Positions 8,988-64,000 of a DNA stretch of 64,000 nt are shown here, piece by piece; positions within the stretch are counted from its first letter, which is position 1, and every line of letters starts with the position of its first letter. The notes below the pieces were generated by a model. The model did no database searches. It was not told the DNA's origin and saw nothing but the letters and a program-made list of their open reading frames with translations. The stretch is taken from assembly GCF_026672275.1 (NCBI RefSeq), contig NZ_JANQCD010000010.1:62001-126000 (forward strand), in the 5' to 3' direction. Origin of the DNA: Marinifilum sp. D737 (GTDB taxonomy: Bacteria; Bacteroidota; Bacteroidia; Bacteroidales; Marinifilaceae). The translations under genes and the position numbers were made by a program.

Positions 8988-9545
8988 AAAATATTAGGTT
9001 TTTTGGTTATATAAATGGCTCTCGCCTATTTTATTTTTAAACGATTCAAGCCTTAATTTTTCTTTGATTAGTTAGTAATCGGATTATTCGTTCGCTTAAT
9101 GTCTTTAGCTAATAATTATGCTTCCAACATTGAATCAACCCAAATTTGAAAAATGCTAACTTGATTCTTGGGTAAATATTCTGCGATAAGGTGGAGATTT
9201 TAAAAAGCTGGCTATTTGCTAATTTTTTTCATCCTTGACTTTAAGTAGTAATAGATAGAAAAGATTACTATTTAAAGGCCATACAGAAGCATTGGAGAAA
9301 TCCTTAATCAAGAAACAGAAGGTTAATATTTCCCCTCGACAATGTTTTAGTAGATATTTTAAGCAATAGTGAGGGATTTTTCGGCATTTGCCTATTATTT
9401 AAGCATTTGAATTATCAAGGGTTTTATTTTTGATGTACATTGTAATACTTTTTTAAAGTCTGTAAAAAAAGTGTGTAATATAGTTTGACAGGCTTTACTA
9501 GGATACGTATTTTTGATAATTCCTGAAGAACGAGAAAGATTGACT
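8988..9545. other. Divergent intergenic region between glycan locus and its regulator
   Basis: A 558-base AT-rich stretch with no convincing reading frame. It must hold the promoter and operator of the minus-strand SusCD locus and the promoter of the plus-strand hybrid regulator; only the latter shows a recognisable pattern. I see no tRNA or strong terminator in it. Confidence 0.7.
9484..9515 (+). promoter_or_regulatory. Bacteroidota housekeeping promoter of the hybrid two-component gene
   Basis: TTTG at 9484-9487, a 20-base spacer and TATTTTTG at 9508-9515 match the Bacteroidota -33/-7 consensus TTTG-N19/20-TAnnTTTG. Transcription would start near 9522, about 24 bases before the ATG at 9546. 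The box overlaps a TTG codon at 9513 that could be mistaken for the start. Confidence 0.6.
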
Positions 9546-12500
9546 ATGTGCCGAATCAATAAATACAATTCTATTAGTTTAGTATTGGTGTTATTCCTAA
9601 CATCCATCGCATCATTTGCTAACGAAACTACCAACTTTATTCATCTGCAAGCAAAGTACAATGGACAACAAACCAATGCCACCAATGTAGTTGAAGATTC
9701 AAAAGGCTATCTTTATATTGAATCATATGATGGCCTTTTAAAATATGATGGCTACGATTTCAAGCTGATTCCTCAATCTAAAATATTTAGTAAAAAAGCT
9801 CATTCAAGCTCTCTGTTTAAATTGTTAAAGCAGAAAAACCAGAACATTTGGGCCGTGTCTCGAAAGGGAGATATCTCAAAATTATTGCCATCAGGTAAAT
9901 TTCAAGATTATGCTTCAACAGTGCATAATCCCAGCGAAGATTTTCAGTTGGAATCAACAAATATTGGAGATACAATTGTTTGGATGGGATCAAAAAATGG
10001 AATGGTGATTGGTCAATCCACCAGAACCAAAAAGGTAATCCAATTCAACATTCAATCCAACGAGAATATCACCTCCATTTCTCAGGATAACAGAAATAAT
10101 GTGTGGTTTGGCACAAACAAAGGAAGAATATTTAAAGGCAATATTAAAACCAGAGATTTGCAGGAAATCAAAGGACCTTTTAACAATCCTTTTAATACCA
10201 TTGTACTTAGTACCGATAACTACAATAACCTATGGATTGGTACGGAATTATATGGTTTCTTTCATTACGACACCAAGACGAAAAGATATGAAGACTACAA
10301 AGAAAAAGACCTGAAACTTAATTTTGTTCCTTCCAATATGATTATTCGTATTTTTAAGGATAGCAATGGCTTTATTTGGATGGGGACCGATGGTGGAGGA
10401 CTTTATAAAATTAACCCAAAAAGCAAACAGGTTAAGCGCTATACACAGCAAAAAACCAACCCTTTCTCCTTACAAAGCAAAACGGTAATTGGAGTTGGTG
10501 AAACCAATAACAAAGACATTTGGGTGTTTACCAATTACGGCAATATAAATATCATTCCTACAGAATCGAATACGGTTGGTTATCATTGTGGTAGTGTAGA
10601 TGGATCGCCAACCAGAATTTTATCGGTACTAAAAACCAAAGATGGTAATTTATGGTTAGGAACAGATGGAGAAGGCTTAAGTAAAATTAATACACAGGGA
10701 GACCCCACTTACCAATACATTGCAAATACGAATTCATCTCATGGAATTCCAGGAAACTACATCCAAGCCATTGCAGAAGATCAAAATGGTAATTTATGGA
10801 TAGGAACTTATTTAAATGGTCTGGCTTTTTTTAATAAAAACACCAATCAATTTATCCGAATAAAAACTGCGAACCAATATGGTCAAGTTGGAACCGATGT
10901 TCGCTCCATTTACATCGATAAAAAAAATAGAGTTTGGATAGGTAGTAACATCGGAATCTTTGTTTTTAATGACAAACAAAAACAAATCGCTTATTTCCAG
11001 CATAACAACCAGGATTTACAAGGAAGTATTGCCGAATTCTTTATTGAAGACGAAACCGGACAATTCTGGATAGGAATGTTTAATGGTGGCATTTGTTTAA
11101 TGGATGAGTCATCTAGTCTGCAAGACTCCAGATTCATTACTTATAAATTATCACCATCAAACAATATAGCTGAAAGCAGTGTATTCCATGGTATAGCCAA
11201 TCAAAATGGATTCTTGTACCTGATTAATGGTTACTCCAAATTGGTGCAGTTCGATATACACAAAAAAGAAGTGGTTCCTCTTAAAGATTTCTCTTCTGAT
11301 CAAATACATGGCTGCGTTGCAATTATCTCAAGCGACAAGCATAACATTTGGCTTTCTAAGAACAACGGAATTTCTCACCTTGATTTACAATCGAGCGAAG
11401 AATATTTTTACACCTGGAAAAATGGCATTATTAAAGGTAAATTCCTTACAGGAAGTGCTTTTCAAGATTCTGACGGAATCATTTACTTTGGGGGAATCGA
11501 GGGGGTCAACTACTTTAACCCCAACAGCATGCAGACGCAAAAAAAAGACCTAAATCTGTATATCAATCATATAGAGATTGTGAACCGACATGCTGATGAA
11601 ATTATTCCTGAACAAGTTGCCAATGGAATAGAGCAAACCAAAACATTGCAACTTAATCACAATCAAACTTCATTCTCGTTTCAATTTTCGGTGATTAATG
11701 ATCACCTTGGCCCTAACTATTCTTATACTTATCGTCTAAAGGGATTTAACGACAATTGGATCACCACAAGGGAAAACAGAGTAGCCACTTACACTAATAT
11801 TCCTTATGGAGACTATACCTTTGAAGTAAAAGCCGGCACAAAACCCAACGACTGGAACATTGCTGCTAAATCAATCGATATTAAAATTCTTCCTCCTCTC
11901 TGGAAAAGGTGGTGGGCCTATACAATTTATGCTTTTCTTCTTTTTGTAATTAGTTTTTTCATTATCCGATACTACATTATGTGGGTAGGCCTAAAACAAA
12001 AGCTATTGTTGGAAGAGATTCAAAATGAAAAGAACAAGGAACTTTATGCAATGAAAATGAATTTCTTTGCAAAGATGTCGCACGAAATTCAAACCCCTTT
12101 AACTCTCATACTGTCTCCTATTGATAATATGATTGAGCGAGCAGAAGGAAATCTATTACTATCGCAACGTTTACAAGTGATTAAAAACAATGCAACCCGA
12201 CTTTCCAGAATTGCAATGGAACTAATGACCATTCGAAACAAGGAAATGGGAAAACTAAAGATTCGTGCAAGTGAAAACAATGTGGTAAATCATTTGAATA
12301 AAGTTGCACTATCCTTTATGGAACAGGCCCGTTTTAAACAAATTGATTTAAGCCTGGAATGCGAATCAAAGAATATCATGCTATGGTACGATCATCAAAA
12401 ACTGGAACACATTATTTATAATCTTCTGACCAATGCTTTTAAGTTCACACCACGCGATGGAAAAATCACACTAGCAATTAAAGAAGAAACGAATGCCAAT

Positions 12501-13625
12501 AAAATATTCCTAAAAGTTATCGATACCGGCATTGGAATTCCACAGCATGATTTAGAGAATATTTTTAACCTGTTCTATCAATCAAAAGATGGAAAAAGAG
12601 TAGGAGGAACAGGAATTGGTTTGGCACTTACCAAAGAACTAATTCTTCTGCACAAAGGTGAGATAAAGGTTGAATCTGAAATTAACAAAGGAACCACATT
12701 TACCATAGCTTTGCCAATGGGAAAAGAACATTTCAGCAGTGATGAAATCATTATACAAGATATTGTAGAAACTAAAATTGAAAATACAAGCAGTATTCTT
12801 GCTACAAATACTGAGCATACCGAAACCATTACTGATGAGAACAAAAGGACATTGCTTATTGTTGAAGACAATTTTGAAATGTTAATGTTCTTAGAGGATA
12901 GTTTTAAAGCTCATTATAATGTAATTACTGCTCAAAATGGACAGGAGGCATTAGACAAGGCAACTACTCTTAAAATTGACATTATTCTTAGTGATGTAAT
13001 GATGCCAATTATGGATGGTGTTACGCTTTGCAAACATTTAAAAGAAAAAAGAAGTACCCGACATATCCCAATTATTTTGCTTACAACTAAAAATGCAACC
13101 GCATCGAAATTGGAAGGATTACAATTTGGTGCCATAGAATACCTTAACAAGCCTTTTAATGTAAAAGAGCTTTTGCTTAAAGTGAATAACATTTTGGAAG
13201 CTCAACTAAGATTAATTGAGCAATACAGAGCCGAAATATTAACTGAAAGTAAGGAAATTGAAGTTAAATCACCTGATGAGAAATTTATAGAATCCGTAAT
13301 CGTGGAAATGGAACGAAACTTCGATAATCCAGATTTTCGTCTTGAAGATTTGGCCGAACCCTTAAACATGAGTTACTCTAATATTTACAGGAAATTTCAG
13401 TCACTTACCGATAAAACTTTGGTTGACTTCATGCGAACTTTCCGATTAAAAAAGGCAATTCCTTTGCTTGTAAAACACAACTTTACCATTTCCGAAATTG
13501 CATTTCAGATTGGCTTTAACGATCCCAAATATTTTTCGAAGTGCTTTAAAAAAGAGTATGGTTTAACTCCAAAGCAATACAAGCAACAAAATAATTCAAC
13601 AACCGACAATATCATTGAAAATTAG
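9546..13625 (+). CDS. Hybrid two-component system regulator (HTCS: beta-propeller sensor, kinase, receiver, AraC DNA-binding)
   Basis: From the ATG at 9546 the protein has 1359 residues. A signal peptide (ending SIASFA) leads to a periplasmic sensor made of two-component-regulator propeller repeats (NLWIGT, NVWFGTN, WMGTDGGG recur), then a Y_Y_Y domain near residue 720 and a membrane helix at about 789-813. The cytoplasmic part has a HisKA box SHEIQTPLT with His846, an HATPase domain (NLLTNAFKFTP, GTGIGLALTKEL), a receiver with Asp1150 in SDVMMPIMDG, and a C-terminal AraC-type helix-turn-helix. Such proteins bind an imported oligosaccharide directly and activate a nearby SusCD locus; this one faces it at 8987. 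The ATG is preferred over an in-frame TTG at 9513 because that TTG lies in the -7 box and the ATG gives a clean signal peptide. Confidence 0.97.
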   Translation: MCRINKYNSISLVLVLFLTSIASFANETTNFIHLQAKYNGQQTNATNVVEDSKGYLYIESYDGLLKYDGYDFKLIPQSKIFSKKAHSSSLFKLLKQKNQNIWAVSRKGDISKLLPSGKFQDYASTVHNPSEDFQLESTNIGDTIVWMGSKNGMVIGQSTRTKKVIQFNIQSNENITSISQDNRNNVWFGTNKGRIFKGNIKTRDLQEIKGPFNNPFNTIVLSTDNYNNLWIGTELYGFFHYDTKTKRYEDYKEKDLKLNFVPSNMIIRIFKDSNGFIWMGTDGGGLYKINPKSKQVKRYTQQKTNPFSLQSKTVIGVGETNNKDIWVFTNYGNINIIPTESNTVGYHCGSVDGSPTRILSVLKTKDGNLWLGTDGEGLSKINTQGDPTYQYIANTNSSHGIPGNYIQAIAEDQNGNLWIGTYLNGLAFFNKNTNQFIRIKTANQYGQVGTDVRSIYIDKKNRVWIGSNIGIFVFNDKQKQIAYFQHNNQDLQGSIAEFFIEDETGQFWIGMFNGGICLMDESSSLQDSRFITYKLSPSNNIAESSVFHGIANQNGFLYLINGYSKLVQFDIHKKEVVPLKDFSSDQIHGCVAIISSDKHNIWLSKNNGISHLDLQSSEEYFYTWKNGIIKGKFLTGSAFQDSDGIIYFGGIEGVNYFNPNSMQTQKKDLNLYINHIEIVNRHADEIIPEQVANGIEQTKTLQLNHNQTSFSFQFSVINDHLGPNYSYTYRLKGFNDNWITTRENRVATYTNIPYGDYTFEVKAGTKPNDWNIAAKSIDIKILPPLWKRWWAYTIYAFLLFVISFFIIRYYIMWVGLKQKLLLEEIQNEKNKELYAMKMNFFAKMSHEIQTPLTLILSPIDNMIERAEGNLLLSQRLQVIKNNATRLSRIAMELMTIRNKEMGKLKIRASENNVVNHLNKVALSFMEQARFKQIDLSLECESKNIMLWYDHQKLEHIIYNLLTNAFKFTPRDGKITLAIKEETNANKIFLKVIDTGIGIPQHDLENIFNLFYQSKDGKRVGGTGIGLALTKELILLHKGEIKVESEINKGTTFTIALPMGKEHFSSDEIIIQDIVETKIENTSSILATNTEHTETITDENKRTLLIVEDNFEMLMFLEDSFKAHYNVITAQNGQEALDKATTLKIDIILSDVMMPIMDGVTLCKHLKEKRSTRHIPIILLTTKNATASKLEGLQFGAIEYLNKPFNVKELLLKVNNILEAQLRLIEQYRAEILTESKEIEVKSPDEKFIESVIVEMERNFDNPDFRLEDLAEPLNMSYSNIYRKFQSLTDKTLVDFMRTFRLKKAIPLLVKHNFTISEIAFQIGFNDPKYFSKCFKKEYGLTPKQYKQQNNSTTDNIIEN

Positions 13626-13627
13626 CA

Positions 13628-15022
13628 ATGACCATATTAAAAAAACACAAATTCCCTTTATTTATTCTGGCAGTATTTCTTTTTGCGTTTGCATTTACGG
13701 CAAGTTTAAAAGGAATAGATCAGTACACATCAACCGATGAGTATTGTGTTTCCTGTCATGTTCATACCCATGCCGATAACAGTTGGAAACAAGCAAGTCA
13801 TTACAATAACAAAAGCGGTGTAGTGGTGCACTGTGTTGACTGTCATCTTCCTCCAAAAGATCATATGAATTATTGGCCTCAGAAGATCAAAGCTGCATCT
13901 AAAGATTTGTATTCTTTTTACTTTACCGACCACTCAAAAATCGATTGGGAAGAAAAATCGAAAGTAAAACATGCCAAGAAATTCACTTACAATGAATCCT
14001 GTATCAACTGTCATGACAACTTGTTTCCTCTTCATCTTTCGAAAAAGGGTGATAAGGCGCATTTATATTACAAGAACAACAAAGACAAACTGGATTGTAT
14101 CAACTGCCATTTAGATGTTGGACATGGTGGCGAAAAAATGCACAAAGCCAACAAAGCATTCTTGCAAAAAGATAAAATAGCAGAGGCATTTAAAGTGGCA
14201 ACAATCATTACCAAGTTTGAAGATTTTACAGAACAAATCCCTGGTACAGATGTAGCATTTGAAATGATTGCCATTCCCAAATCAGACAGGATTGCGACTT
14301 TCTTTATGGGGAAAATTGAGGTATCGTGGAATGAGTACAAAACATTCCTTGAGGAAACAGAATCGGAAGGAAGGCTTACTGAAAGTAATGCAGATGTTGA
14401 TGCCATTAGCGGTGCAACTCCTCCTTTTGGCGATCCATCGCAAGGCTGGGGAATGGGACAAAGGCCCGCCATTACCATGACATGGCATGCTGCTAACACC
14501 TATTGCAAATGGCTTTCGCAAAAAACCGGCAAAACTTATCGCTTGCCAACAAAACAAGAGTGGATTCATGCCTGCAAAGCCAATAGCAATGAAGATTTTT
14601 TCTTTGGAGGCAAGATAAAAGACTATAAGGAACGCAAGTTTCCTGTGAACCTATTCCGATCTCCCGATGAAAAAATCAATGAATATGTAATTTGGTCCGG
14701 GAACAGCAATGAGAAAACATCTTTGCCAAATCAGGTAAAACCTAACCCTTTTGGACTAGTCAACATGCTTGGCAACGTAAAAGAATTTTGTTCTGATGAG
14801 ATCAATATCAATGGCAAAACAGAACATGTTATCATGGGTGGATCATTCAATAGCAAAGCAGAAGATCTACCATATAATAAAATCGATCACACACAGCATG
14901 AGGCCTGGATGATAACAGATCCACAAATTCCGAAAAGCATATGGTGGTATTCAGATTGTACCGATGTTGGATTCAGAGTAGTTTGTGAATTTCCTAATAA
15001 ACAAAGCAAGAGTCATGAATAA
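13628..15022 (+). CDS. Tetraheme NapC/NirT-like cytochrome fused to SUMF1-like domain
   Basis: This 464-residue protein starts two bases after the regulator's stop codon. One N-terminal membrane helix (residues about 9-27) anchors a multiheme part with four CxxCH sites: 40-44, 69-73, 125-129 and 157-161, as in NapC/NirT/NrfH quinol dehydrogenases. From about residue 205 to the end there is a formylglycine-generating-enzyme/SUMF1-like fold (FFMGKIEVSWNEYKTF, TWHAANTYCKWLSQKTGKTYRLPTKQEWIHAC, GLVNMLGNVKEFC, GGSF, DVGFRVV). The cysteine pair that binds copper in true FGE after the GGS motif is absent, so sulfatase maturation is unlikely. It overlaps the Gfo/Idh/MocA gene by 8 bases. Inferred role: passing electrons between the quinone pool and a periplasmic redox partner, with the SUMF1-like part as binding or docking module. 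Confidence 0.9.
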   Translation: MTILKKHKFPLFILAVFLFAFAFTASLKGIDQYTSTDEYCVSCHVHTHADNSWKQASHYNNKSGVVVHCVDCHLPPKDHMNYWPQKIKAASKDLYSFYFTDHSKIDWEEKSKVKHAKKFTYNESCINCHDNLFPLHLSKKGDKAHLYYKNNKDKLDCINCHLDVGHGGEKMHKANKAFLQKDKIAEAFKVATIITKFEDFTEQIPGTDVAFEMIAIPKSDRIATFFMGKIEVSWNEYKTFLEETESEGRLTESNADVDAISGATPPFGDPSQGWGMGQRPAITMTWHAANTYCKWLSQKTGKTYRLPTKQEWIHACKANSNEDFFFGGKIKDYKERKFPVNLFRSPDEKINEYVIWSGNSNEKTSLPNQVKPNPFGLVNMLGNVKEFCSDEININGKTEHVIMGGSFNSKAEDLPYNKIDHTQHEAWMITDPQIPKSIWWYSDCTDVGFRVVCEFPNKQSKSHE

Positions 15023-16361
15023 ATCATACGAACAAAGTCGCAGAAAATTTATCCGTAATGCAGCAGCTGCAGGTATAATTGGTGCTGTTGGTTTTAATAG
15101 TCTTTTCACCTCTTGCAATGGAGGCAAGCCAAGGGAGTATGATTTTCCTCCTATGCTACCAACAGCTCCTGACGGTCCGCTTTTAAAAGCCGGAGTGGTT
15201 GGTTGTGGATATCGTGGAACCGGCGCTGCCATTAATTTCTTAAATGCAGGTCCAAACCTGGAAATTGCAGCCTTGGCAGATGTTTTTCAGGATCGTGTTG
15301 ATGCTTGCAGAAAGCAAATAAAAGAAAAGAAGGGTGTTGAAGTGTCGCCTGACCAATGCTTTGTTGGCATAAATTCTTTCGAAAAACTGATGGAATGTGA
15401 TTTGGATATCGTGATTTTGGCAACTCCGCCTCACTTCAGGCCGCAACATTTCGAGGCTTGTGTTAAGGCACAAAAACATGTTTTCATGGAAAAGCCTATC
15501 GCCGTTGATCCGGTTGGCGTGCGATCGGTAATGGTTTCGGCAGAGAAAGCAAAAATGCTTGGATTATCGGTAATAACTGGTACCATAAAGCGTCATCAGC
15601 AAGACTATATCGAAACCTTTAAGCAGGTAAATAATGGTGCAATTGGAGAGATTGTATCGGCAAATAGTTACTACAATGTTGGGAAACTTTGGCATCGCAA
15701 CCCAAGAGCTGATTGGTCAGAACTCGAAAATATGATTCGCAATTGGGTAAACTGGTGCTGGCTTTCGGGCGATCACATTGTAGAACAGCATGTTCACAAC
15801 CTGGATACCGTAAATTGGTTTGTTGGCAAACATCCTGAAAAAGCCCTTGGTTTTGGAGCCCGCCATCAACGAATAACGGGCGATCAGTACGACATGTTTA
15901 GTGTGGATTTTGTTTACGATAAGGACATACATTATCACAGCATGTGCCGTCAAATTAACGATTGCTCCAATTCGGTTTCCGACAGAATTCAGGGCACCAA
16001 GGGATATACCAATTGCGAGAATAGCATTTTTGATTTAGATGGAAGCATTAAATGGACATTCGATTATCCAAAGAAAGGAACAGGCAAAAACATCAGCCGA
16101 TTGCAAACCAATCCTTTCGATCAGGAGCATATCGATTTGGTAACTTCTATTCGAACCAACCAGGCAATTAACGAAGCATTTCAAATTGCAGAATCTACCC
16201 TAACAGGAATCATGGGTAGAATTTCGGCCTATACAGGCAAAGAGGTTACCTGGGATGAGATGATGAATTCTGATTTGTATTTGGGCCCAAAAACCTACAC
16301 GATTGGCTCGGTAGATATCCCAAAAGAAGTTCCTAAACCGGGAAAGGCTCCTGCTATTTAA
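15015..16361 (+). CDS. Exported Gfo/Idh/MocA family oxidoreductase
   Basis: The 448-residue protein starts at the ATG at 15015, which overlaps the stop of the cytochrome gene (ATGAATAA); an upstream in-frame GTG at 14985 would add ten residues before the signal sequence. The N-terminus has a twin-arginine-like motif (SRRKFIRN) followed by a hydrophobic stretch and a lipobox (FTSC), so it is predicted to be exported folded and lipidated. The Rossmann motif GVVGCGYRGTG (about residues 55-65), the EKP motif (VFMEKPIAVDP) and the downstream HIVEQHVHNLD region are those of NAD(P)-dependent sugar dehydrogenases or oxidoreductases with tightly bound cofactor. Translational coupling to a membrane cytochrome suggests sugar oxidation or reduction in the periplasm. 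Substrate unknown. Confidence 0.93.
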   Translation: MNKSYEQSRRKFIRNAAAAGIIGAVGFNSLFTSCNGGKPREYDFPPMLPTAPDGPLLKAGVVGCGYRGTGAAINFLNAGPNLEIAALADVFQDRVDACRKQIKEKKGVEVSPDQCFVGINSFEKLMECDLDIVILATPPHFRPQHFEACVKAQKHVFMEKPIAVDPVGVRSVMVSAEKAKMLGLSVITGTIKRHQQDYIETFKQVNNGAIGEIVSANSYYNVGKLWHRNPRADWSELENMIRNWVNWCWLSGDHIVEQHVHNLDTVNWFVGKHPEKALGFGARHQRITGDQYDMFSVDFVYDKDIHYHSMCRQINDCSNSVSDRIQGTKGYTNCENSIFDLDGSIKWTFDYPKKGTGKNISRLQTNPFDQEHIDLVTSIRTNQAINEAFQIAESTLTGIMGRISAYTGKEVTWDEMMNSDLYLGPKTYTIGSVDIPKEVPKPGKAPAI

Positions 16362-16381: not shown

Positions 16382-16426
16382 AAAAAACGTGCTTACGAAA
16401 ATAAAAAACGTAAGCACGTTTTTTTT
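16382..16426. terminator. Strong intrinsic terminator after Gfo/Idh/MocA gene
   Basis: Stem 16382-16397 pairs with 16409-16424 (core CGTGCTTACG/CGTAAGCACG) followed by a T-run to 16426. The A-run on the other side makes it usable from both strands. Confidence 0.9.
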
Positions 16427-16751: not shown

Positions 16752-18338
16752 CTATTCTTTCATCTCCGCTTGTTTCTCTTCGGCCCAAGGCACCAATTTC
16801 GATTGATAGTAATTGATCTCCTGAAACTCGAATCTTGTTTTTTGTTTTCCCAATCGAACTTTGTATTCATCCCAGGAATTGTTTTGATCAGGTGACCAAC
16901 CCAATTCAGCATAGCCCAATAAACGAGGGAAAGTTAGATATTCAATGTCATCCATCGTTTCGATGGTTTCGGCCCAAAGAGGAGCTTCTATACCGATAAT
17001 ATCCTCTTTATCGATTCCTTCCACATTTCCTTCTAAAGTCCAATTGTAAGCTTTATCCACCTCAAGGTATCCTGCCCAATGCAATCCTAGTGGCGAGATT
17101 GAGTCATACTGCATATCCATATACGCACGAGTTGCTGGCGACATTAGTATTTTAACGTCCTGTTCAACGGCTTTTAAAGCGTTCTTAGGCTTGGTTTGCC
17201 AGAATTGTGCAACAGCACTTTTATCAAGCTCAGCAGCGGCAATATCTGCCCAACCCATTACTTTTTTATTGTGAGCAAGTACAATCTTTTGTACTCTCTC
17301 GATAAACTTGATGTAATCTTTCTTCTTGGTTGCATGTGATTCATCACCTCCAATATGGATGTACTCACCAGGAGTTAAAGCAGCCAATTCACGAATTACA
17401 TCATCAATAAATTTGTAAGTAATTTCTTTATTGGTTGCCAAAGTACTAAAACCAACACGAGTTCCGGTATATGCTTTGCGAGCCTTTCCGTCAGCATTTA
17501 GTTCTGCATACGAAGCCAAAGCAGCATTGGTATGTCCAGGCATGTCAATTTCAGGTACAATGGTAATAAATCGATCAGCTGCATACTGCACAATCTCTTT
17601 GTATTGCTCTTGCGTATAGAAACCACCTTCGCCTCCACCTACTTCTGTTTTTCCACCAATTTCGGTAAGCTTAGGCCATGATTTAATTTCCAATCTCCAG
17701 CCCTGATCATCTGTCAAATGCAGGTGTAAAACATTCATTTTATAAGCTGCCAGGTAATCGATGTATTGCTTCACTTCATCAACATCAAAAAAATGACGAA
17801 CCACATCCAACATGGCACCACGATATCCATATTGTGGATAATCTTCGATGTTTCCGCTTGCAATTAACCAAGGGCCTTCTTGTTTCTTTTTAGATTCAAT
17901 TTTAGCAGGCAACAATTGACGTATGGTCTGAATTCCTCTATACAATCCTTCTGCTTTATAGGCTTGTAAAGAAATTTTACGAGGATCAATTGTCAAATTG
18001 TATCCTTCTTTGCCTAGCTTTTCAAATTTGTCATCAAGCATTAAGGATATGCCTCGGCTGCCCAGTGGCGTTTTTAATTCTTTAATTTTGGGTTGAAATC
18101 CTGTTGCAGGTGCAATCAGTTCCACCAAATGATTTGCAATTTTCTTAGCTTCCTCATTTCCTGTTTGGATATGAATTTGAGTATGCTTGTTCCACTCAAA
18201 AGAGCTTCCTGTTGCTTCCAATTTTACAGGTTTCGGAATCAGATTTTCTTTCGCTAAATCCATTGGAACCGGCTCTTTACAAGATGTGAATACTAAAGCA
18301 ATAAAAAGTACAAATAGTAAAGGTTTTAGTTTAGTCAT
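16752..18338 (-). CDS. GH20 beta-N-acetylhexosaminidase lipoprotein
   Basis: This 528-residue protein has a signal peptide with lipobox (VFTSC, Cys20). A GH20b-like N-terminal domain covers about residues 25-160, and the GH20 catalytic barrel about 170-500. The barrel shows GYRGAMLDVVRHF, HLHLTDDQGWR, the substrate-assisted catalytic pair Asp332-Glu333 in HIGGDES, and later Trp-rich subsite motifs (GWADIAA, APLWAETI). It removes terminal beta-linked GlcNAc or GalNAc from glycans. It sits 35 bases downstream of a ROK sugar kinase and closes the amino-sugar locus. The lipobox places it in the periplasm or on the outer membrane. Confidence 0.96.
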   Translation of the reverse strand: MTKLKPLLFVLFIALVFTSCKEPVPMDLAKENLIPKPVKLEATGSSFEWNKHTQIHIQTGNEEAKKIANHLVELIAPATGFQPKIKELKTPLGSRGISLMLDDKFEKLGKEGYNLTIDPRKISLQAYKAEGLYRGIQTIRQLLPAKIESKKKQEGPWLIASGNIEDYPQYGYRGAMLDVVRHFFDVDEVKQYIDYLAAYKMNVLHLHLTDDQGWRLEIKSWPKLTEIGGKTEVGGGEGGFYTQEQYKEIVQYAADRFITIVPEIDMPGHTNAALASYAELNADGKARKAYTGTRVGFSTLATNKEITYKFIDDVIRELAALTPGEYIHIGGDESHATKKKDYIKFIERVQKIVLAHNKKVMGWADIAAAELDKSAVAQFWQTKPKNALKAVEQDVKILMSPATRAYMDMQYDSISPLGLHWAGYLEVDKAYNWTLEGNVEGIDKEDIIGIEAPLWAETIETMDDIEYLTFPRLLGYAELGWSPDQNNSWDEYKVRLGKQKTRFEFQEINYYQSKLVPWAEEKQAEMKE

Positions 18339-18373
18339 CGTTGTGTATTTTGATTGTTTTTTGTTGATTCAAA

Positions 18374-19336
18374 TCATGATACGATCTTCTCATCGTTCCA
18401 AATTAAGGCTGCCGCTCCCAATATTGCAGCATCATCGCCCAATTGAGAAGGCAACAACTTCACCTTGTCCTTGTATAGGAACAACATATTCTCATCCATA
18501 GCTTCTTTCACCGGATCGAATAGCAAGTCACCTGCCTTAGCAAGTCCTCCAAACAAGAAAATAGCCTCTGGAGCTGTTACTGATGCCACATTGGCCAAAG
18601 CTTCCCCAAGCATTTTTCCAGTGTATTTAAATGTTTCCAATGCTACAGAATCACCCTCACTAGCCGCTTCAGCAACCATTTTTGCATTCAGGTTATTAAA
18701 AGGAATATCACGCAAAGTACTTTCCCCTAAATGCTTTGCCAATAATTTGTATACAGATCTTTTTACACCTGTTGCTGATACGTAAGTTTCCAAACATCCT
18801 TTTCTACCACAAGCACAATCTCTACCTCCCGGGCGAACAATGATATGTCCTACTTCTCCAGCGAAACCTTCATATCCATATAGTAAATCGCCATTAACAA
18901 CAATTCCACTACCTAATCCTGTTCCCAAAGTAATCACCATGAAATCAGACATATTTTTGGCGCCACCAAAAATTCTTTCTCCTAATGCAGCAGCATTGGC
19001 ATCATTGGTAACTTTTACCGGAACATTTAATTTCTCATTTACCATTTTAGCAATTGGCAGTGTACCTTTCCATCTTAGGTTAGCAGCATTCTCGATTGTT
19101 CCGGTTCTATAACTACCATTCGGAGCCCCAATTCCAACACCAACAATACGCACTTCCGTTTCGGTATTCTCAAGCGAAGAGTTTATCTCCGCAATCAAAT
19201 CCTCAATATAATCCTCAAAGTGCTCTTTTGTTTGGGTCGGAATATTTCCCTCAGCTATAGTATTCCCTTTAGAGTCAATACATCCAAATACTGTATTTGT
19301 CCCACCAATGTCGATTCCAATTGCTATTTCTGTCAT
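18374..19336 (-). CDS. ROK family sugar kinase (glucokinase / N-acetylglucosamine kinase type)
   Basis: From the ATG at 19336 the protein has 320 residues; the in-frame TTG at 19372 would add twelve residues ahead of the ATP-binding start and is not favoured. It shows the ROK pattern: phosphate-binding IGIDIGGTNT near the N-terminus, GTGLGSGIVVNG, the active-site/zinc segment EVGHI followed by CACGRKGC, and a C-terminal FGGLAKAGD. No helix-turn-helix is present, so it is an enzyme and not a repressor. Position between a NagB-type deaminase and a GH20 hexosaminidase argues for phosphorylation of GlcNAc or glucose at C6. Sequence alone does not separate NagK from glucokinase. Confidence 0.9.
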   Translation of the reverse strand: MTEIAIGIDIGGTNTVFGCIDSKGNTIAEGNIPTQTKEHFEDYIEDLIAEINSSLENTETEVRIVGVGIGAPNGSYRTGTIENAANLRWKGTLPIAKMVNEKLNVPVKVTNDANAAALGERIFGGAKNMSDFMVITLGTGLGSGIVVNGDLLYGYEGFAGEVGHIIVRPGGRDCACGRKGCLETYVSATGVKRSVYKLLAKHLGESTLRDIPFNNLNAKMVAEAASEGDSVALETFKYTGKMLGEALANVASVTAPEAIFLFGGLAKAGDLLFDPVKEAMDENMLFLYKDKVKLLPSQLGDDAAILGAAALIWNDEKIVS

Positions 19337-19658
19337 TGTGTTATTTATATTTTCTTTCGGCCAATGGGCCAATTAATTATTCCAGGCAAAGAACTCCAAA
19401 AGTTGAAGGAATATGAAAGTCTGGCTGCTCTAAATTTGTTTCACCCAAGGAATCCACTTAAAACCTGCTTCAATATTTTCGTCTGGTAAATTTGTGCAAA
19501 ATCCACGATACAATCCAGTTTCGATTCAATTTTCTTTTCCCCAAAAACATCTTTCAATGAATAAGAACCTATTAACCTAAGTTAGATATTGGCTCCTAAT
19601 AAAAAAAAATGGACCGAAGGGCCTAAACCCTCCGATCCTATGGTATTTGTGTGTGGTA
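19337..19658. other. Intergenic region with terminator and kinase promoter
   Basis: A 322-base stretch separating the nagB-like gene from the kinase on the minus strand. It holds the nagB-like terminator at 19611-19638 and presumably the promoter of the kinase/GH20 pair. No gene is supported; the plus-strand frame across it starts inside the kinase gene. Confidence 0.6.
19611..19638 (-). terminator. Intrinsic terminator of the nagB-like transcript
   Basis: Eleven-base stem (19611-19621 with 19628-19638, with G-U pairs) followed on the minus strand by ATTTTTTTTT. It splits the amino-sugar locus into two transcription units. Confidence 0.85.
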
Positions 19659-21986
19659 CTAAAACGGATTTTCTTCTACAGCTTTTTCCAAATCTTTAGC
19701 CATCGTAACAAACTCCTCGGCGGTCATTTCTTTCATGTAAACCAATCCGTGAGTTGCTCTTACCAATGGGTGATCATTTTCGTAGAAGAAGTTTTTACCC
19801 AACAAGAGTTGAATTTGCTTTAATTGCTGTACCCAAACTTTTTGAGTCAGCTCATTAAACTTGCCATCGTACTCATAACTTGGGAATGATGCATTTACCT
19901 GACTCATGTAACATTCGGTAAATGAATTCTCCAATACATCAAGAGAGTTTAAGGATACTGGCACAATATAATCTGCATCTGCCGGATGATACTTGAACCA
20001 AACATTTCTGTATCCAATAATTCTTAATTTAGAAAGATCCTCTTCTTCTCCCCACTCCTTAACAGCTCCTGCAATTGCTTGCAATACTTTGTAGTGAGTA
20101 TCAGGACCACTTCCTTCCGGATCCATAGCCAAACTGATGGTAGTTGGCTTGTATTTTCTAAATTCTTCCAAAACCGGAAGCATATCTCTGTTCTTTTCAG
20201 GAAGTTCAGTAAAAATATCTCCCTTATAGAAACCTAAACGCAAGTGGTGAACATTGTTTACCGGAACCCCGAAGTGTCCCCATACCAATTCTTCTTCGAA
20301 CTCACGAACCATACCCTTCATTTTCTGAACTTCTGGTGAATTCTTTCCACCATCGTAAGAACTTTCCAGCTCGCCAATTACACTTGCAATTACTTTATTT
20401 AAATGGAACTTATCCTGTACTTTCCAAATTCCTACGATCGATCTGATCACACGGTGACACAAACCTCTACGTTTGCCATTCTCGTTACGCTCAGCAACTG
20501 AGTTCAAGAAGTGAGAAACGTCTTTGTCCCATTTCTTATCATATCCTACCTCAAAGAAATCAGGATATTCCAACATTTGAACTTCATCATTTGAAATAAA
20601 GTTCTGACACTCTTTTAAAACGCCAATGATAAATCCATTGGTAACTGCAGTAAAACCAGAAGTCAAAACCGAAAAGTGAATTTCGTTGCTAGCAGAACGT
20701 ACCTGACGGTTAATGTAAGGCATAATACCTAATGCGATATCATCATGATGCGGACCTGTATGATAAACCACCTCATCATTATCAGCTTTCATTCCTTTTT
20801 CAAGCTTATTTTGGATTGCATCGATAACCAACTGTACCGTATCCTCACTTAAATTAGGTATTTGACTGGTATATGGATCAGCTTTTAAATCTTCAAGCGT
20901 TAGGTGATGTCCATATTTATTAAGTTTCTGACACAAATCGATTACTGCTTTCTCAGTTTTTGTTTGTGTCCACTCACCCTCTTTGTAGTATTGATTTACA
21001 GAATCGGCAAGCTTACATGCAGCTCCGGTTGTCAGGTAAAAACGACCATTTTTCTGACGTTGAAGTACAGAAGCAGGATAAACAGCATCAGGCTTACTTT
21101 CCAATGAACCTTTTACAATATCTGCCTTAGCTTCACCAGCTGCAAAAATAATTGAAACAGCATCTTTATCGTGAGTAATTGTATCCAAACCAATGGTAAT
21201 CACCAATCGGTTTCTCGATACTTCGATTCCTCCCAAATCACCAGCAGCAACAGCTTGTGTTTCGAAGTTGGTTTTGGTTAATCGTGTAGTTGAATAGTGA
21301 TCCGAACCACGCGTATTAAATGCAATGTGACCATCAGGACCAATTCCTCCCAGGAAGAAACCAATTCCACCTTTTTCACGAATCTTCTGCTCGTATTGTG
21401 TACACCAATTGTCAATCATGAAGATTGAATCTTGCTGCATTTTCTCTACTTCACTTGTTGCTTCACGGTAACGAAGCGACAAATCGATATTGTAATCCGG
21501 GAATACCTCAAGGAATGATTTATTATCAACCAAAGGAATTTCCTCTGAATTAATTAACAAAGCATTCTCTTCCTTCAATCCAAATCCTTCGATATAATAT
21601 TTCATCACATAGTTGTAAAAACTATTGTGCTGACGAGGATCAATCGGGTAAAACTCATCGATTTGAACAAATTGTAATCCACTCAAATCAGGCTTAGCCA
21701 TTTCGCCTAACCCGTATTGAGAACGAATTTCAATTCCTTTCTCATTGTCCCAGTTTTCCAACAAAAACTGCGTGTATTTGATAAAATATTCAGGAGTTTT
21801 ACCCGTAGGCAAACTAATTACTCCATTAGGGTTTTGCTCCGCCCATTCTAAAAAGCGCAGCGAGGTCATCAATCCTAATTTTGGGAAATTATCAACCGTA
21901 ACATATGGAATTTGGGCTGTCATTTCCTGCATTCCTGATAATTCATAGAATGCTTGCTCTACTCTTGATTCAAATCTTTTTTCCAT
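19659..21986 (-). CDS. nagB: Glucosamine-6-phosphate deaminase-like protein fused to LmbE/PIG-L-like domain
   Basis: This 775-residue protein has an N-terminal NagB/RpiA-type domain at about residues 25-340 with SLPTGKTPEYF, the active-site segment GGIGPDGHIAFNTRG and the family's VVDNF/QIDEFYP motifs. A second domain at about 400-700 begins YHTGPHHDDIALG, which matches the metal-binding start of LmbE/PIG-L N-deacetylases (usually PHPDD/PHHDD). NagB converts glucosamine 6-phosphate to fructose 6-phosphate and ammonia; the LmbE-like part could supply the preceding N-deacetylation. No separate nagA is seen nearby, which fits that idea. Such two-domain proteins are known in Bacteroidota. Third gene after the transporter in the same transcript direction. 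Confidence 0.92.
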   Translation of the reverse strand: MEKRFESRVEQAFYELSGMQEMTAQIPYVTVDNFPKLGLMTSLRFLEWAEQNPNGVISLPTGKTPEYFIKYTQFLLENWDNEKGIEIRSQYGLGEMAKPDLSGLQFVQIDEFYPIDPRQHNSFYNYVMKYYIEGFGLKEENALLINSEEIPLVDNKSFLEVFPDYNIDLSLRYREATSEVEKMQQDSIFMIDNWCTQYEQKIREKGGIGFFLGGIGPDGHIAFNTRGSDHYSTTRLTKTNFETQAVAAGDLGGIEVSRNRLVITIGLDTITHDKDAVSIIFAAGEAKADIVKGSLESKPDAVYPASVLQRQKNGRFYLTTGAACKLADSVNQYYKEGEWTQTKTEKAVIDLCQKLNKYGHHLTLEDLKADPYTSQIPNLSEDTVQLVIDAIQNKLEKGMKADNDEVVYHTGPHHDDIALGIMPYINRQVRSASNEIHFSVLTSGFTAVTNGFIIGVLKECQNFISNDEVQMLEYPDFFEVGYDKKWDKDVSHFLNSVAERNENGKRRGLCHRVIRSIVGIWKVQDKFHLNKVIASVIGELESSYDGGKNSPEVQKMKGMVREFEEELVWGHFGVPVNNVHHLRLGFYKGDIFTELPEKNRDMLPVLEEFRKYKPTTISLAMDPEGSGPDTHYKVLQAIAGAVKEWGEEEDLSKLRIIGYRNVWFKYHPADADYIVPVSLNSLDVLENSFTECYMSQVNASFPSYEYDGKFNELTQKVWVQQLKQIQLLLGKNFFYENDHPLVRATHGLVYMKEMTAEEFVTMAKDLEKAVEENPF

Positions 21987-61787: not shown

Positions 61788-64000
61788 TAAATCGAACTCA
61801 GGTTAATACTTTTCGGAATCGTAAAACTAAATTTTGAACCTCGCTCAACAGCCGATTCTACCCACAATTCACCTCCCAATAACTCAACAATATCTTTCGA
61901 AATGGATAGTCCAAGTCCTATTCCTCCATGTTGTCTGGTAAGGTGATTTTCGATCTGTCTGAAACGGCTAAAAATAATCCTCTGATGCTCCGGAGATATT
62001 CCAATTCCTGTATCCTGCACATAAAAAAGAACACTATCTTTTAAACTTTCACAGCCAATAACTATCTCTCCTTCTTTGGTAAATTTAATGGCATTGCGAA
62101 TCAAATTATTTAAAACCTGTAACAGTTTACCTTTATCAGTATGTATTTCAAAATTTGGATTAAACATATAATCCAATTTCACACTTAATTTCTTTTTTTC
62201 AGCCTCAACAGTATGAAGATTTTTTAGGCCCAATAAAAATGGATCCAGAGAAACAGGATCTACATTTATTTGTAATTTCTTTGCCTCCAACAATGAGGCA
62301 TCCATTATATCATTCATAATACTCATTAGCTGATTTCCACAATCTTTTATTATGGAAGCATATTGTTTTCGCTCTTCATCTGTTAAATTTACATCGCCAA
62401 TAAAATCGGTAAAACCGAGCAAACCATTTAGTGGGGTTCTAACTTCATGACTCAAGTTTGCAAGAAATGCCGTTTTAAGCCTGTCATTTTCTTCCGCTTT
62501 AAGCAGGGCGTGTGTTAATTTAGCTTCAATTTGTTTTTTTTCGGTAATATCCAATCCAACTTTTAGGTATCCGATGATACTATTTTCATCGTCAACCACA
62601 GGTGAAATGGAAGCCGACTCCCAATAATAACTAGAATCTTTACGCTTGTTGTAAAATTCTCCTTTCCACTTTTCACCTGACGATATGGTCTGCCACAAAT
62701 CTTTGTAAACAATAGCTGATTGTTTGCCTGATTTTAAAATCCTTGGATTTTCTCCTATCAGCTCTTCAAGGCCGTAGCCTGTCAGCTTGCAGAATATCGG
62801 ATTTACATATTCTATTTCTCCCTTAGTATTCGTAATTACTATTGATGCCGGACTTTGTTCCACCGCATTTGATAGTTTAGTCAGCTTAAGCAAATTTATA
62901 TTTCTCTCGGTCACATCCCGTATTACAGAGTGTAAGAGTTCTATCCCATCAACCATTACAACACCTGATGAAATTTCAACATCTTTAATTTCTCCCGATG
63001 CAATGCGATGCTTCGCTTTAAATATTGTTTTTGAGTTCGTCTTGGCTTTCTCGATATTATCCCAAACCGTAACTTCTCCTGCAATATTTAAATCCCAAAT
63101 TTTAAGATTTAAGAGTTCTCTTTTAGAATAGCCATAAAACTCACAGGCACTTTCGTTCACATCTTTTATCAACCCATTTTCAGGCGATACAAGCATCATT
63201 ACAGATGAACTACCGTAAAAAATATTCTTGTATCTATTCTCCGCCTCACTTAACTTCTCCTTTAATTTAACCTTATCGGTTAAATCTACCGCCGAAACTG
63301 CAAATTCCTTATCACTTAAGGGAAATGAATCTACATAAATGAACTTCCCAATATCCGAATGATAAGAGTAAAAATTGGTATTCTTAAAATCATTAGTCAC
63401 CGAATTGAAATAATCAATCCACTCAGGTTCTGTATTTGGAAACAATTCCAACAAAGTCTTACCAATCGCTTTGTCTTTTGAAATTTCTATTATTTCTTCA
63501 TTTGCGGGATTCATATCCTTGCAGAGTAAATCCACCAATTCTCCTACTTCATTCCTAATTGGTTCAAGAATCGCTATGGCAGAATTTGAAGCAGAAAAAA
63601 GTGTCTTGTACTTCAATTCACTTTTCAACAATTGTTCTACAAGTTTCTGATTTTCTATTTTATACTCTTCTAAAAAGAACTTATTCATTTCTTCCTGATA
63701 CATTGCTTTTAAATCAGACTCGATAATCTTTCGGAATTCTACCAGGGAGCATTTTATACCTGAATCGAACTTTATTTCCTCCTCATTTACAACGTATAAA
63801 ACCCCAAATAAATCTCCATTCGAAAATTTAAGAGGGTATCCCCAAAAAAAGAGGTTGTTATAATTGTTAAGTGCTAAATCATCAGAACAAATTTCATTTT
63901 TTACTGCTAATACTTTTTCATGATCTAAATATTCTTGAATCTCTAATATTAATGCTTTGTCGCACGTATCACTTTTTAATAAAAGCTGAGTATTTGATTC
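61787..64000 (-). CDS. GAF/multi-PAS sensor histidine kinase (5' end outside window)
   Basis: The frame is open from the stop at 61787 to the window end at 64000, giving 737 residues; an internal ATG at 63703 is probably not the start because the open frame upstream encodes a GAF-like end (FFWGYPLKFSNGDLFGVLYVVNEE). Three PAS domains follow (ELKYKTLFSASNSAIAIL, RYKNIFYGSSSVMMLV, LSNAVEQSPASIVIT with GEIEYVNPIFCKLTGY). Next is the HisKA box NLSHEVRTPLNGL with the phosphoacceptor His, and the HATPase domain (NLIRNAIKFT, DTGIGISPEHQ, GGIGLGLSISKDIVELLGG). No membrane helix or receiver is visible in the part seen, so it is a soluble sensor whose response regulator is encoded elsewhere. Confidence 0.92.
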   Translation of the reverse strand, partial: ESNTQLLLKSDTCDKALILEIQEYLDHEKVLAVKNEICSDDLALNNYNNLFFWGYPLKFSNGDLFGVLYVVNEEEIKFDSGIKCSLVEFRKIIESDLKAMYQEEMNKFFLEEYKIENQKLVEQLLKSELKYKTLFSASNSAIAILEPIRNEVGELVDLLCKDMNPANEEIIEISKDKAIGKTLLELFPNTEPEWIDYFNSVTNDFKNTNFYSYHSDIGKFIYVDSFPLSDKEFAVSAVDLTDKVKLKEKLSEAENRYKNIFYGSSSVMMLVSPENGLIKDVNESACEFYGYSKRELLNLKIWDLNIAGEVTVWDNIEKAKTNSKTIFKAKHRIASGEIKDVEISSGVVMVDGIELLHSVIRDVTERNINLLKLTKLSNAVEQSPASIVITNTKGEIEYVNPIFCKLTGYGLEELIGENPRILKSGKQSAIVYKDLWQTISSGEKWKGEFYNKRKDSSYYWESASISPVVDDENSIIGYLKVGLDITEKKQIEAKLTHALLKAEENDRLKTAFLANLSHEVRTPLNGLLGFTDFIGDVNLTDEERKQYASIIKDCGNQLMSIMNDIMDASLLEAKKLQINVDPVSLDPFLLGLKNLHTVEAEKKKLSVKLDYMFNPNFEIHTDKGKLLQVLNNLIRNAIKFTKEGEIVIGCESLKDSVLFYVQDTGIGISPEHQRIIFSRFRQIENHLTRQHGGIGLGLSISKDIVELLGGELWVESAVERGSKFSFTIPKSINLSSI

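Follow-up and report, generated by a model that had tools for sequence, protein, structure and literature searches.

In a 64,000-nucleotide stretch of DNA from Marinifilum sp. D737 (contig NZ_JANQCD010000010.1, forward-strand positions 62,001 to 126,000; hereafter the window), a gene for a tetraheme cytochrome fused to a SUMF1-like domain is followed directly by a gene for a lipoprotein of the Gfo/Idh/MocA oxidoreductase family (hereafter Gfo) that carries a twin-arginine translocation (Tat) signal. The fusion protein and Gfo are a real, conserved two-protein module built of known parts. Judging from their sequences, they probably act together at the inner membrane, on its periplasmic side, as one respiratory module that handles sugars in the periplasm. 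Electrons may well pass between the quinone pool and the reaction of Gfo, whichever way they run. That the flow is oxidative is a more tentative proposal. The features that the original prediction had read from the two genes, namely the positions of the CxxCH motifs, the membrane helix, the SUMF1 domain, the gene overlap, SRRKFIRN and the lipobox, are all present and exact to the base (Table 1). Its interpretation, a periplasmic sugar module that exchanges electrons with quinones and bypasses free NAD, is supported in part.

The original prediction treated conservation of the gene pairing in other genomes as decisive, and the pairing is conserved. Named genomes were scanned with an alignment of three fusion proteins, by way of heme-motif patterns, and the best 80 of 377 relatives were kept. 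Every one of these 80 joins a cytochrome to SUMF1 and has exactly four CxxCH motifs. Their record titles are mostly those of Bacteroidales/Bacteroidota, including Marinifilum, Labilibaculum, Ancylomarina, Prolixibacteraceae, Marinilabiliaceae, Tannerella and many metagenome-assembled genomes (MAGs); there are also one Melioribacteraceae (Ignavibacteriota) record and one KSB1 record. A Gfo gene is directly downstream of the fusion in 73 of the 80 loci, being recognized as the next reading frame in 72 and by tblastn in the other (L083). Of these Gfo genes, that of L033 is broken, and those of L061, L076 and L083 run into contig ends. In the seven loci without an adjacent Gfo, the contig ends within 200 bases (L052 and L106), ends within about 380 bases that hold no match (L064 and L107), or extends at least 1.3 kb downstream of the fusion with no Gfo match (L094, L108 and L109). 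The last three loci are from Prevotellaceae MAGs, and the gene directly upstream of the fusion encodes a short-chain dehydrogenase in L094 and L108 and is APH-like in L109. The broken gene, that of Marinifilum fragile (L033:9388-10728), was recovered in three tblastn pieces, reflecting either sequencing error or decay.

The association was also followed genome by genome in 393 genomes of the order, with limits chosen at 1e-150 for Gfo and 1e-40 for the fusion. The fusion is present in 51 genomes and this Gfo clade in 52; 51 genomes carry both, none carries the fusion only, and one (G552) carries Gfo only. These searches scored the best three or four candidates in each genome, so that copy numbers are lower bounds and absences rest on those candidates. 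The count of 51, which spans 21 family labels, excludes three genomes with weak partial matches (G546, G555 and G765) and includes one (G759) with only the rear part of a fusion, at a contig start. Within the family to which the window belongs, four further genomes lack both genes. Gfo is adjacent to the fusion at 54 of the 59 places where a fusion occurs, genes being counted as adjacent when they share a strand and lie -60 to 400 bases apart. With 73 of 80 loci paired and 51 genomes carrying both genes, the idea that the pairing is an accident of one genome was rejected. A PHROGs scan returned two general matches only, and no paper naming the fusion or the pair was found in the open-licence literature, a description elsewhere being possible.

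The coding sequences are constrained as well. The fusion protein is 98% identical to its M. flexuosum counterpart, and against a related Marinifilum (L034) the ratio of nonsynonymous to synonymous substitution (dN/dS) is about 0.05 for the cytochrome part, 0.12 for the SUMF1 part and 0.04 for Gfo; silent sites were partly saturated for the two more distant relatives that were tried.

Table 1. Features of the fusion-Gfo locus, in window coordinates.
Feature	Position	Strand	Basis
Hybrid two-component regulator (Reg_prop, HisKA, HATPase, Response_reg, AraC HTH)	9513..13625	+	Open reading frame, Pfam
Tetraheme cytochrome-SUMF1 fusion gene, 464 amino acids	13628..15022	+	Open reading frame, Pfam, 80 related loci
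N-terminal membrane helix, residues 8-34	13649..13729	+	AlphaFold model, hydrophobic sequence
Heme motif 1, CVSCH, residues 40-44, then invariant His46	13745..13759	+	81/81
Heme motif 2, CVDCH, residues 69-73	13832..13846	+	81/81
Putative quinol-site pair, Lys86 and Asp93	13883..13906	+	Aligned with Lys82 and Asp89 of NrfH 2j7a
Heme motif 3, CINCH, residues 125-129	14000..14014	+	81/81
Heme motif 4, CINCH, residues 157-161	14096..14110	+	81/81
SUMF1/FGE-like domain, about residues 200-455, minus two segments present in most other fusions	14225..14992	+	Profile, fold, alignment
Overlap of fusion and Gfo genes, 8 bases, ATGAATAA	15015..15022	+	Sequence
Gfo/Idh/MocA oxidoreductase gene, Tat lipoprotein, 448 amino acids	15015..16361	+	Open reading frame, Pfam, alignment, model
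Twin-arginine motif SRRKF (within SRRKFIRN)	15036..15050	+	RR in 70/70
Lipobox FTSC, Cys34	15105..15116	+	Cys in 70/70
Hairpin then T run, likely terminator 3' of the Gfo gene	16388..16426	+	Direct sequence reading, without a terminator scan

The N-terminal part of the fusion is predicted to be a quinol cytochrome of the NapC/NirT type, in agreement with the original prediction. It matches Cytochrom_NNT over residues 11-167 (2e-27, 96.5 bits against a Pfam gathering score of 24.1). Across 81 aligned fusion proteins the four CxxCH motifs are invariant, as are His46, His58, His145 and His166, which provide one further His per heme; Asp93 shows no exception either, and position 86 holds Lys in 80 rows. 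The fusion shares with NrfH, NapC and CymA the single N-terminal helix, the four CxxCH motifs and the Cytochrom_NNT profile, and its Lys86 and Asp93 align with Lys82 and Asp89 of NrfH (2j7a_C), which we take to be the menaquinol site. It differs from them in having a C-terminal SUMF1 domain, in having Gfo rather than NrfA as its partner, and in placing His46 where NrfH has Met49, presumably a heme-1 ligand. It is also unlike NrfH proper, scoring 80.2 bits against the NCBIfam equivalog cut-off of 134.2. Because the same genome carries a separate NrfH-NrfA pair elsewhere, a role of the fusion as partner of a nitrite reductase there was rejected. The genome also encodes two cytochrome c assembly proteins, so the hemes can be attached. 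The AlphaFold model of the fusion is only moderate (mean predicted local distance difference test score, pLDDT, 77.8; predicted template modelling score, pTM, 0.61), and its domain placement was not used. NapC/NrfH proteins are described as quinol dehydrogenases in the available passages of a published account (PMC12285233).

The partner protein matches Gfo/Idh/MocA in Pfam (2e-15), and it was aligned with the Gfo proteins of 69 of the 80 loci, those longer than 420 amino acids and scoring above 300 bits. The Tat twin arginines and the lipobox Cys are invariant in all 70 rows, so that the extracytoplasmic location on which the original prediction depended is well supported by the predicted signal. 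The lipobox of the window copy has Phe at position -3, where most rows have Leu. Equally invariant are GxGxxG, Lys160 of the EKP motif and the catalytic-type His261, and position 257 is Glu in 39 rows and Asp in 31. The same Rossmann GxGxxG, EKP Lys and catalytic-type His are found in Gfo enzymes that are periplasmic or hold bound nicotinamide adenine dinucleotide (NAD), namely glucose-fructose oxidoreductase, aldose-aldose oxidoreductase, DgpA, RgNanOx and the BT_2158 family. The structural model (mean pLDDT 85.4) matches YjhC, inositol dehydrogenases, RgNanOx, aldose-aldose oxidoreductase and glucose-fructose oxidoreductase, with 1h6d, 5a02 and 6z3c among the fold matches. The difference is that the window protein is a Tat lipoprotein with a dedicated cytochrome partner, and that it reached no NCBIfam cut-off and lay far below every model matched; for the BT_2158 glycoside 3-dehydrogenase equivalog it scored 25 bits against 750.

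A periplasmic Gfo enzyme has no NAD pool to draw on and hence depends on a co-substrate or on some other path for its electrons. The available passages on the Gfo enzyme DgpA describe NAD(H) bound almost equimolarly and a ping-pong cycle, in which a 3-oxo sugar is required to reset the NADH and added NAD inhibits (PMC11239390). This is a problem that a quinone link would solve. In the mechanism that we propose, Gfo would be exported folded with NAD(H) bound and would oxidize a hydroxyl of a sugar or glycoside to a keto group; electrons of the bound NADH would then pass through the tetraheme domain to menaquinone, re-oxidizing the cofactor, and the SUMF1 domain would serve for docking and alignment. 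The same machine could run backwards, menaquinol reducing a keto sugar. The bound cofactor, the NADH-to-heme transfer, the direction and the substrate are steps that we infer. The conserved cytochrome partner offers a concrete and testable answer to how extracytoplasmic Gfo enzymes with trapped NAD(H) shed or gain electrons, for which characterized examples such as DgpA use a second sugar (PMC11239390). If the mechanism is correct, Gfo would be freed from a keto-sugar co-substrate, and this would extend to the gut species Parabacteroides distasonis, in which the module is also found. Among known systems, the LacABC-type lactose 3-dehydrogenase has a catalytic subunit that is cytochrome-linked and belongs to another family (flavin adenine dinucleotide, GMC-type). 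Its likeness to the present module lies in a putative periplasmic 3-keto sugar route beside DUF1080 hydrolases, as the available passages on it have it (PMC9007349).

A single cell could have several Gfo lipoproteins served by one hub. At 29 of the 83 Gfo places in the 393 genomes, Gfo is not beside a fusion. The 20 of these that were fetched (L192-L211) all encode Tat lipoproteins, 19 by pattern and one by translation, and 19 of the 20 are in fusion-carrying genomes. This correlation suggests a single cytochrome serving several oxidoreductases, which would be analogous to CymA of the same cytochrome family. In the available passages of one report, CymA is a quinol oxidase that serves several reductions in Shewanella and is a proposed quinone reductase in Sideroxydans (PMC6295460). 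The most specific form of the idea is a respiratory hub in which a menaquinone-linked tetraheme-SUMF1 protein re-oxidizes, free of flavin, the trapped nicotinamide of a whole set of Tat-anchored Gfo lipoproteins, so that Bacteroidales could oxidize periplasmic glycans straight into the quinone pool; in this full form we consider it rather unlikely. At least three extra lipoprotein Gfo copies were seen in G432 and G709.

Several points weigh against an electron route between Gfo and the quinone pool. The module shows no flavin, nor anything else that could split two-electron into one-electron steps, and NADH-to-heme transfer without such a converter is chemically poor. SUMF1 is not known to transfer electrons, and NapC/NrfH proteins usually donate to reductases, the oxidative direction not being their default. 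Five of the 80 loci have 378 to 1878 bases of room and no Gfo; two of the genomes of L094, L108 and L109 carry a Gfo of the same kind elsewhere, and that of L094 shows none. The co-occurrence in 51 genomes is uncorrected for kinship, for which reason no weight is placed on its p-value, and the lipobox and the fusion may represent one shared event rather than many. Finally, SUMF1 and Gfo genes also occur as unfused pairs, 16 of which have wide flanks and no neighbour with more than one CxxCH, so that the pair apparently can work without an adjacent multiheme protein. The weak step in our proposal is the NADH-to-heme transfer without a flavin: either SUMF1 acts there somehow, or the electrons belong to SUMF1 chemistry.

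The latter option leads to the alternative that survives best, although we still hold it to be unlikely: SUMF1 would be the real redox enzyme, oxidizing or reducing a substrate and passing electrons to or from the fused hemes, and Gfo would act on the same sugar independently, in a step without net redox change that uses the NAD bound to Gfo itself. The hemes are, after all, covalently joined to SUMF1 and not to Gfo. The SUMF1 domain, to which the original prediction assigned no function, matches FGE-sulfatase in Pfam over residues 217-393 (2.1e-24, 87 bits against a gathering score of 23.3) and resembles FGE, PvdO and PorK/GldK by both profile and fold. The top structural match of the fusion model is PvdO, for which the NCBIfam name is dihydropyoverdine dehydrogenase. 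A DPQxPxSxWW signature is invariant in 63 fused and 22 unfused SUMF1 rows. Three Cys columns (293, 388 and 453) are kept in at least 75% of the fusion rows; Cys388 is present in 58 of the 63 fused rows and Cys453 in 60, and neither occurs in any of the 22 unfused rows. An insert of 17 residues (327-343) is likewise confined to the fused forms. Fused-only among the rows compared, Cys388 and Cys453 are possibly a disulfide or a redox site.

Against SUMF1 as a redox enzyme, at least one of Cys388 and Cys453 is missing from seven of the 63 fused rows, the SUMF1 domain has no well-conserved His, and no conserved metal-ligand set was seen in it. Formylglycine-generating enzyme (FGE) has two copper-binding active-site cysteines, which are without counterpart here, there being no conserved Cys from GGS to W427 in the fusion alignment. 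Unfused SUMF1, moreover, adjoins Gfo without hemes, and the window domain has lost about 38 residues (about 22 and 16 in two places) relative to two other fusions. A segment around GGxFxMGS is missing from the window copy and four other Marinifilum/Labilibaculum rows of the 63, a second Labilibaculum copy (L055) not being among them; the window SUMF1 is under purifying selection despite these losses. The fusion thus shares the fold and sequence profile of SUMF1/FGE/PvdO proteins and differs from them in being joined to hemes, in lacking the FGE catalytic cysteines and, in the window's group, in the two lost segments. A sulfatase-activating FGE was rejected, since the catalytic cysteines are absent and the partner is not a sulfatase. 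In the EgtB/OvoA sulfoxide synthases, a DinB-type domain with iron histidines precedes the FGE-like domain; in the fusion the cytochrome occupies that place, and Pfam gave no DinB match.

The unfused pairs show the same two partners in another setting. The comparison covered 27 loci of other Bacteroidota with an unfused SUMF1 gene, which are the best-scoring ones found rather than a random draw. In 22 of them a homologous Gfo gene comes next in the same order, and no cytochrome part is present. Anchoring also differs from that of the fusion module. By eye, the N-termini of these 22 Gfo proteins show RR in 21 and a lipobox in none, the Cys right after RRxF in L028 and L031 not being a lipobox. 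In a Gfo tree, 63 fused-clade rows (from 97 fused pairs, after near-copy removal) and 22 others are separated by a single branch with support of 100/99; the tree is midpoint-rooted and long branches meet in it (L119_F with L142_U and 21 more), so that the fused/unfused split is no rooted history. There may have been a single switch, in which the joining of SUMF1 to a membrane cytochrome was accompanied by membrane anchoring of its Gfo partner. Within the unfused pairs L142-L161, a one-CxxCH protein is encoded directly upstream in L153 and L156 and further off in L151 and L159.

It is improbable that the module has no electron link at all, SUMF1 being an adaptor or lectin-like sugar binder and the cytochrome serving another periplasmic acceptor or only anchoring or regulating. 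It is true that profile and structure place PorK/GldK, from the ring of type 9 secretion, and a variable protein of Treponema among the relatives of SUMF1, and that some fusions lack an adjacent Gfo, but constraint on every heme motif and on the Lys/Asp pair of the quinol site is close to perfect and the presence of the fusion tracks that of Gfo, genome by genome. Least probable of the alternatives is a menaquinol-driven reduction, in which the cytochrome would deliver electrons as NrfH/NapC do and Gfo would reduce a keto sugar or keto glycoside; the quinol-site residues and the kinship with quinol dehydrogenases agree with it, but menaquinol is a weak reductant for NAD, which would therefore have to be skipped or to have a strongly shifted potential, and the neighbouring genes for BT_2158-like Gfo proteins, isomerase-like TIM barrels and ThuA recall oxidative glycoside breakdown.

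Those neighbours are recurrent. The second gene 3' of the fusion was readable on the same strand in 49 loci, in 31 of which it belongs to one second-Gfo cluster and in nine to a xylose-isomerase-like TIM-barrel cluster. The best match of the three second-Gfo proteins tested is the BT_2158 glycoside 3-dehydrogenase family, at 159, 174 and 503 bits against the cut-off of 750, and a ThuA-DUF6807 protein is encoded in the flanks of 20 of the 80 loci. In the window (16752-21986), one convergent gene beside the module encodes a GH20 hexosaminidase, another a ROK kinase, and a further one a protein that matches glucosamine isomerase weakly, with a score under the cut-off. Because these genes adjoin the module, an amino sugar is a plausible candidate substrate at the window locus; relatives of the three are near the fusion in 4, 5 and 5 of the 80 loci, respectively.

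Two further aspects of the window arrangement are local. The original prediction held the two genes to be translationally coupled, and the Gfo ATG at 15015 does precede the fusion-gene TAA (15020-15022). The overlap is not conserved, the median gap being 46.5 bases in 54 adjacent pairs of the order, and it was rejected as a general trait. Similarly, the placement directly behind a regulator holds in only 10 of the 80 loci, every one of them Marinifilum or Labilibaculum, so that an adjoining regulator is not a general trait either.

When plasmid records were searched, a single record covered most of the query; it is from Parabacteroides distasonis and labelled plasmid 45 (L212:8866-12795). The order there is fusion (with four CxxCH), Gfo (with Tat signal and lipobox) and a sugar isomerase/epimerase, which itself has RR and a lipobox-like Cys. 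The fusion in this record is annotated as a 'SUMF1/EgtB/PvdO family nonheme iron enzyme', a label that hides its four heme motifs.

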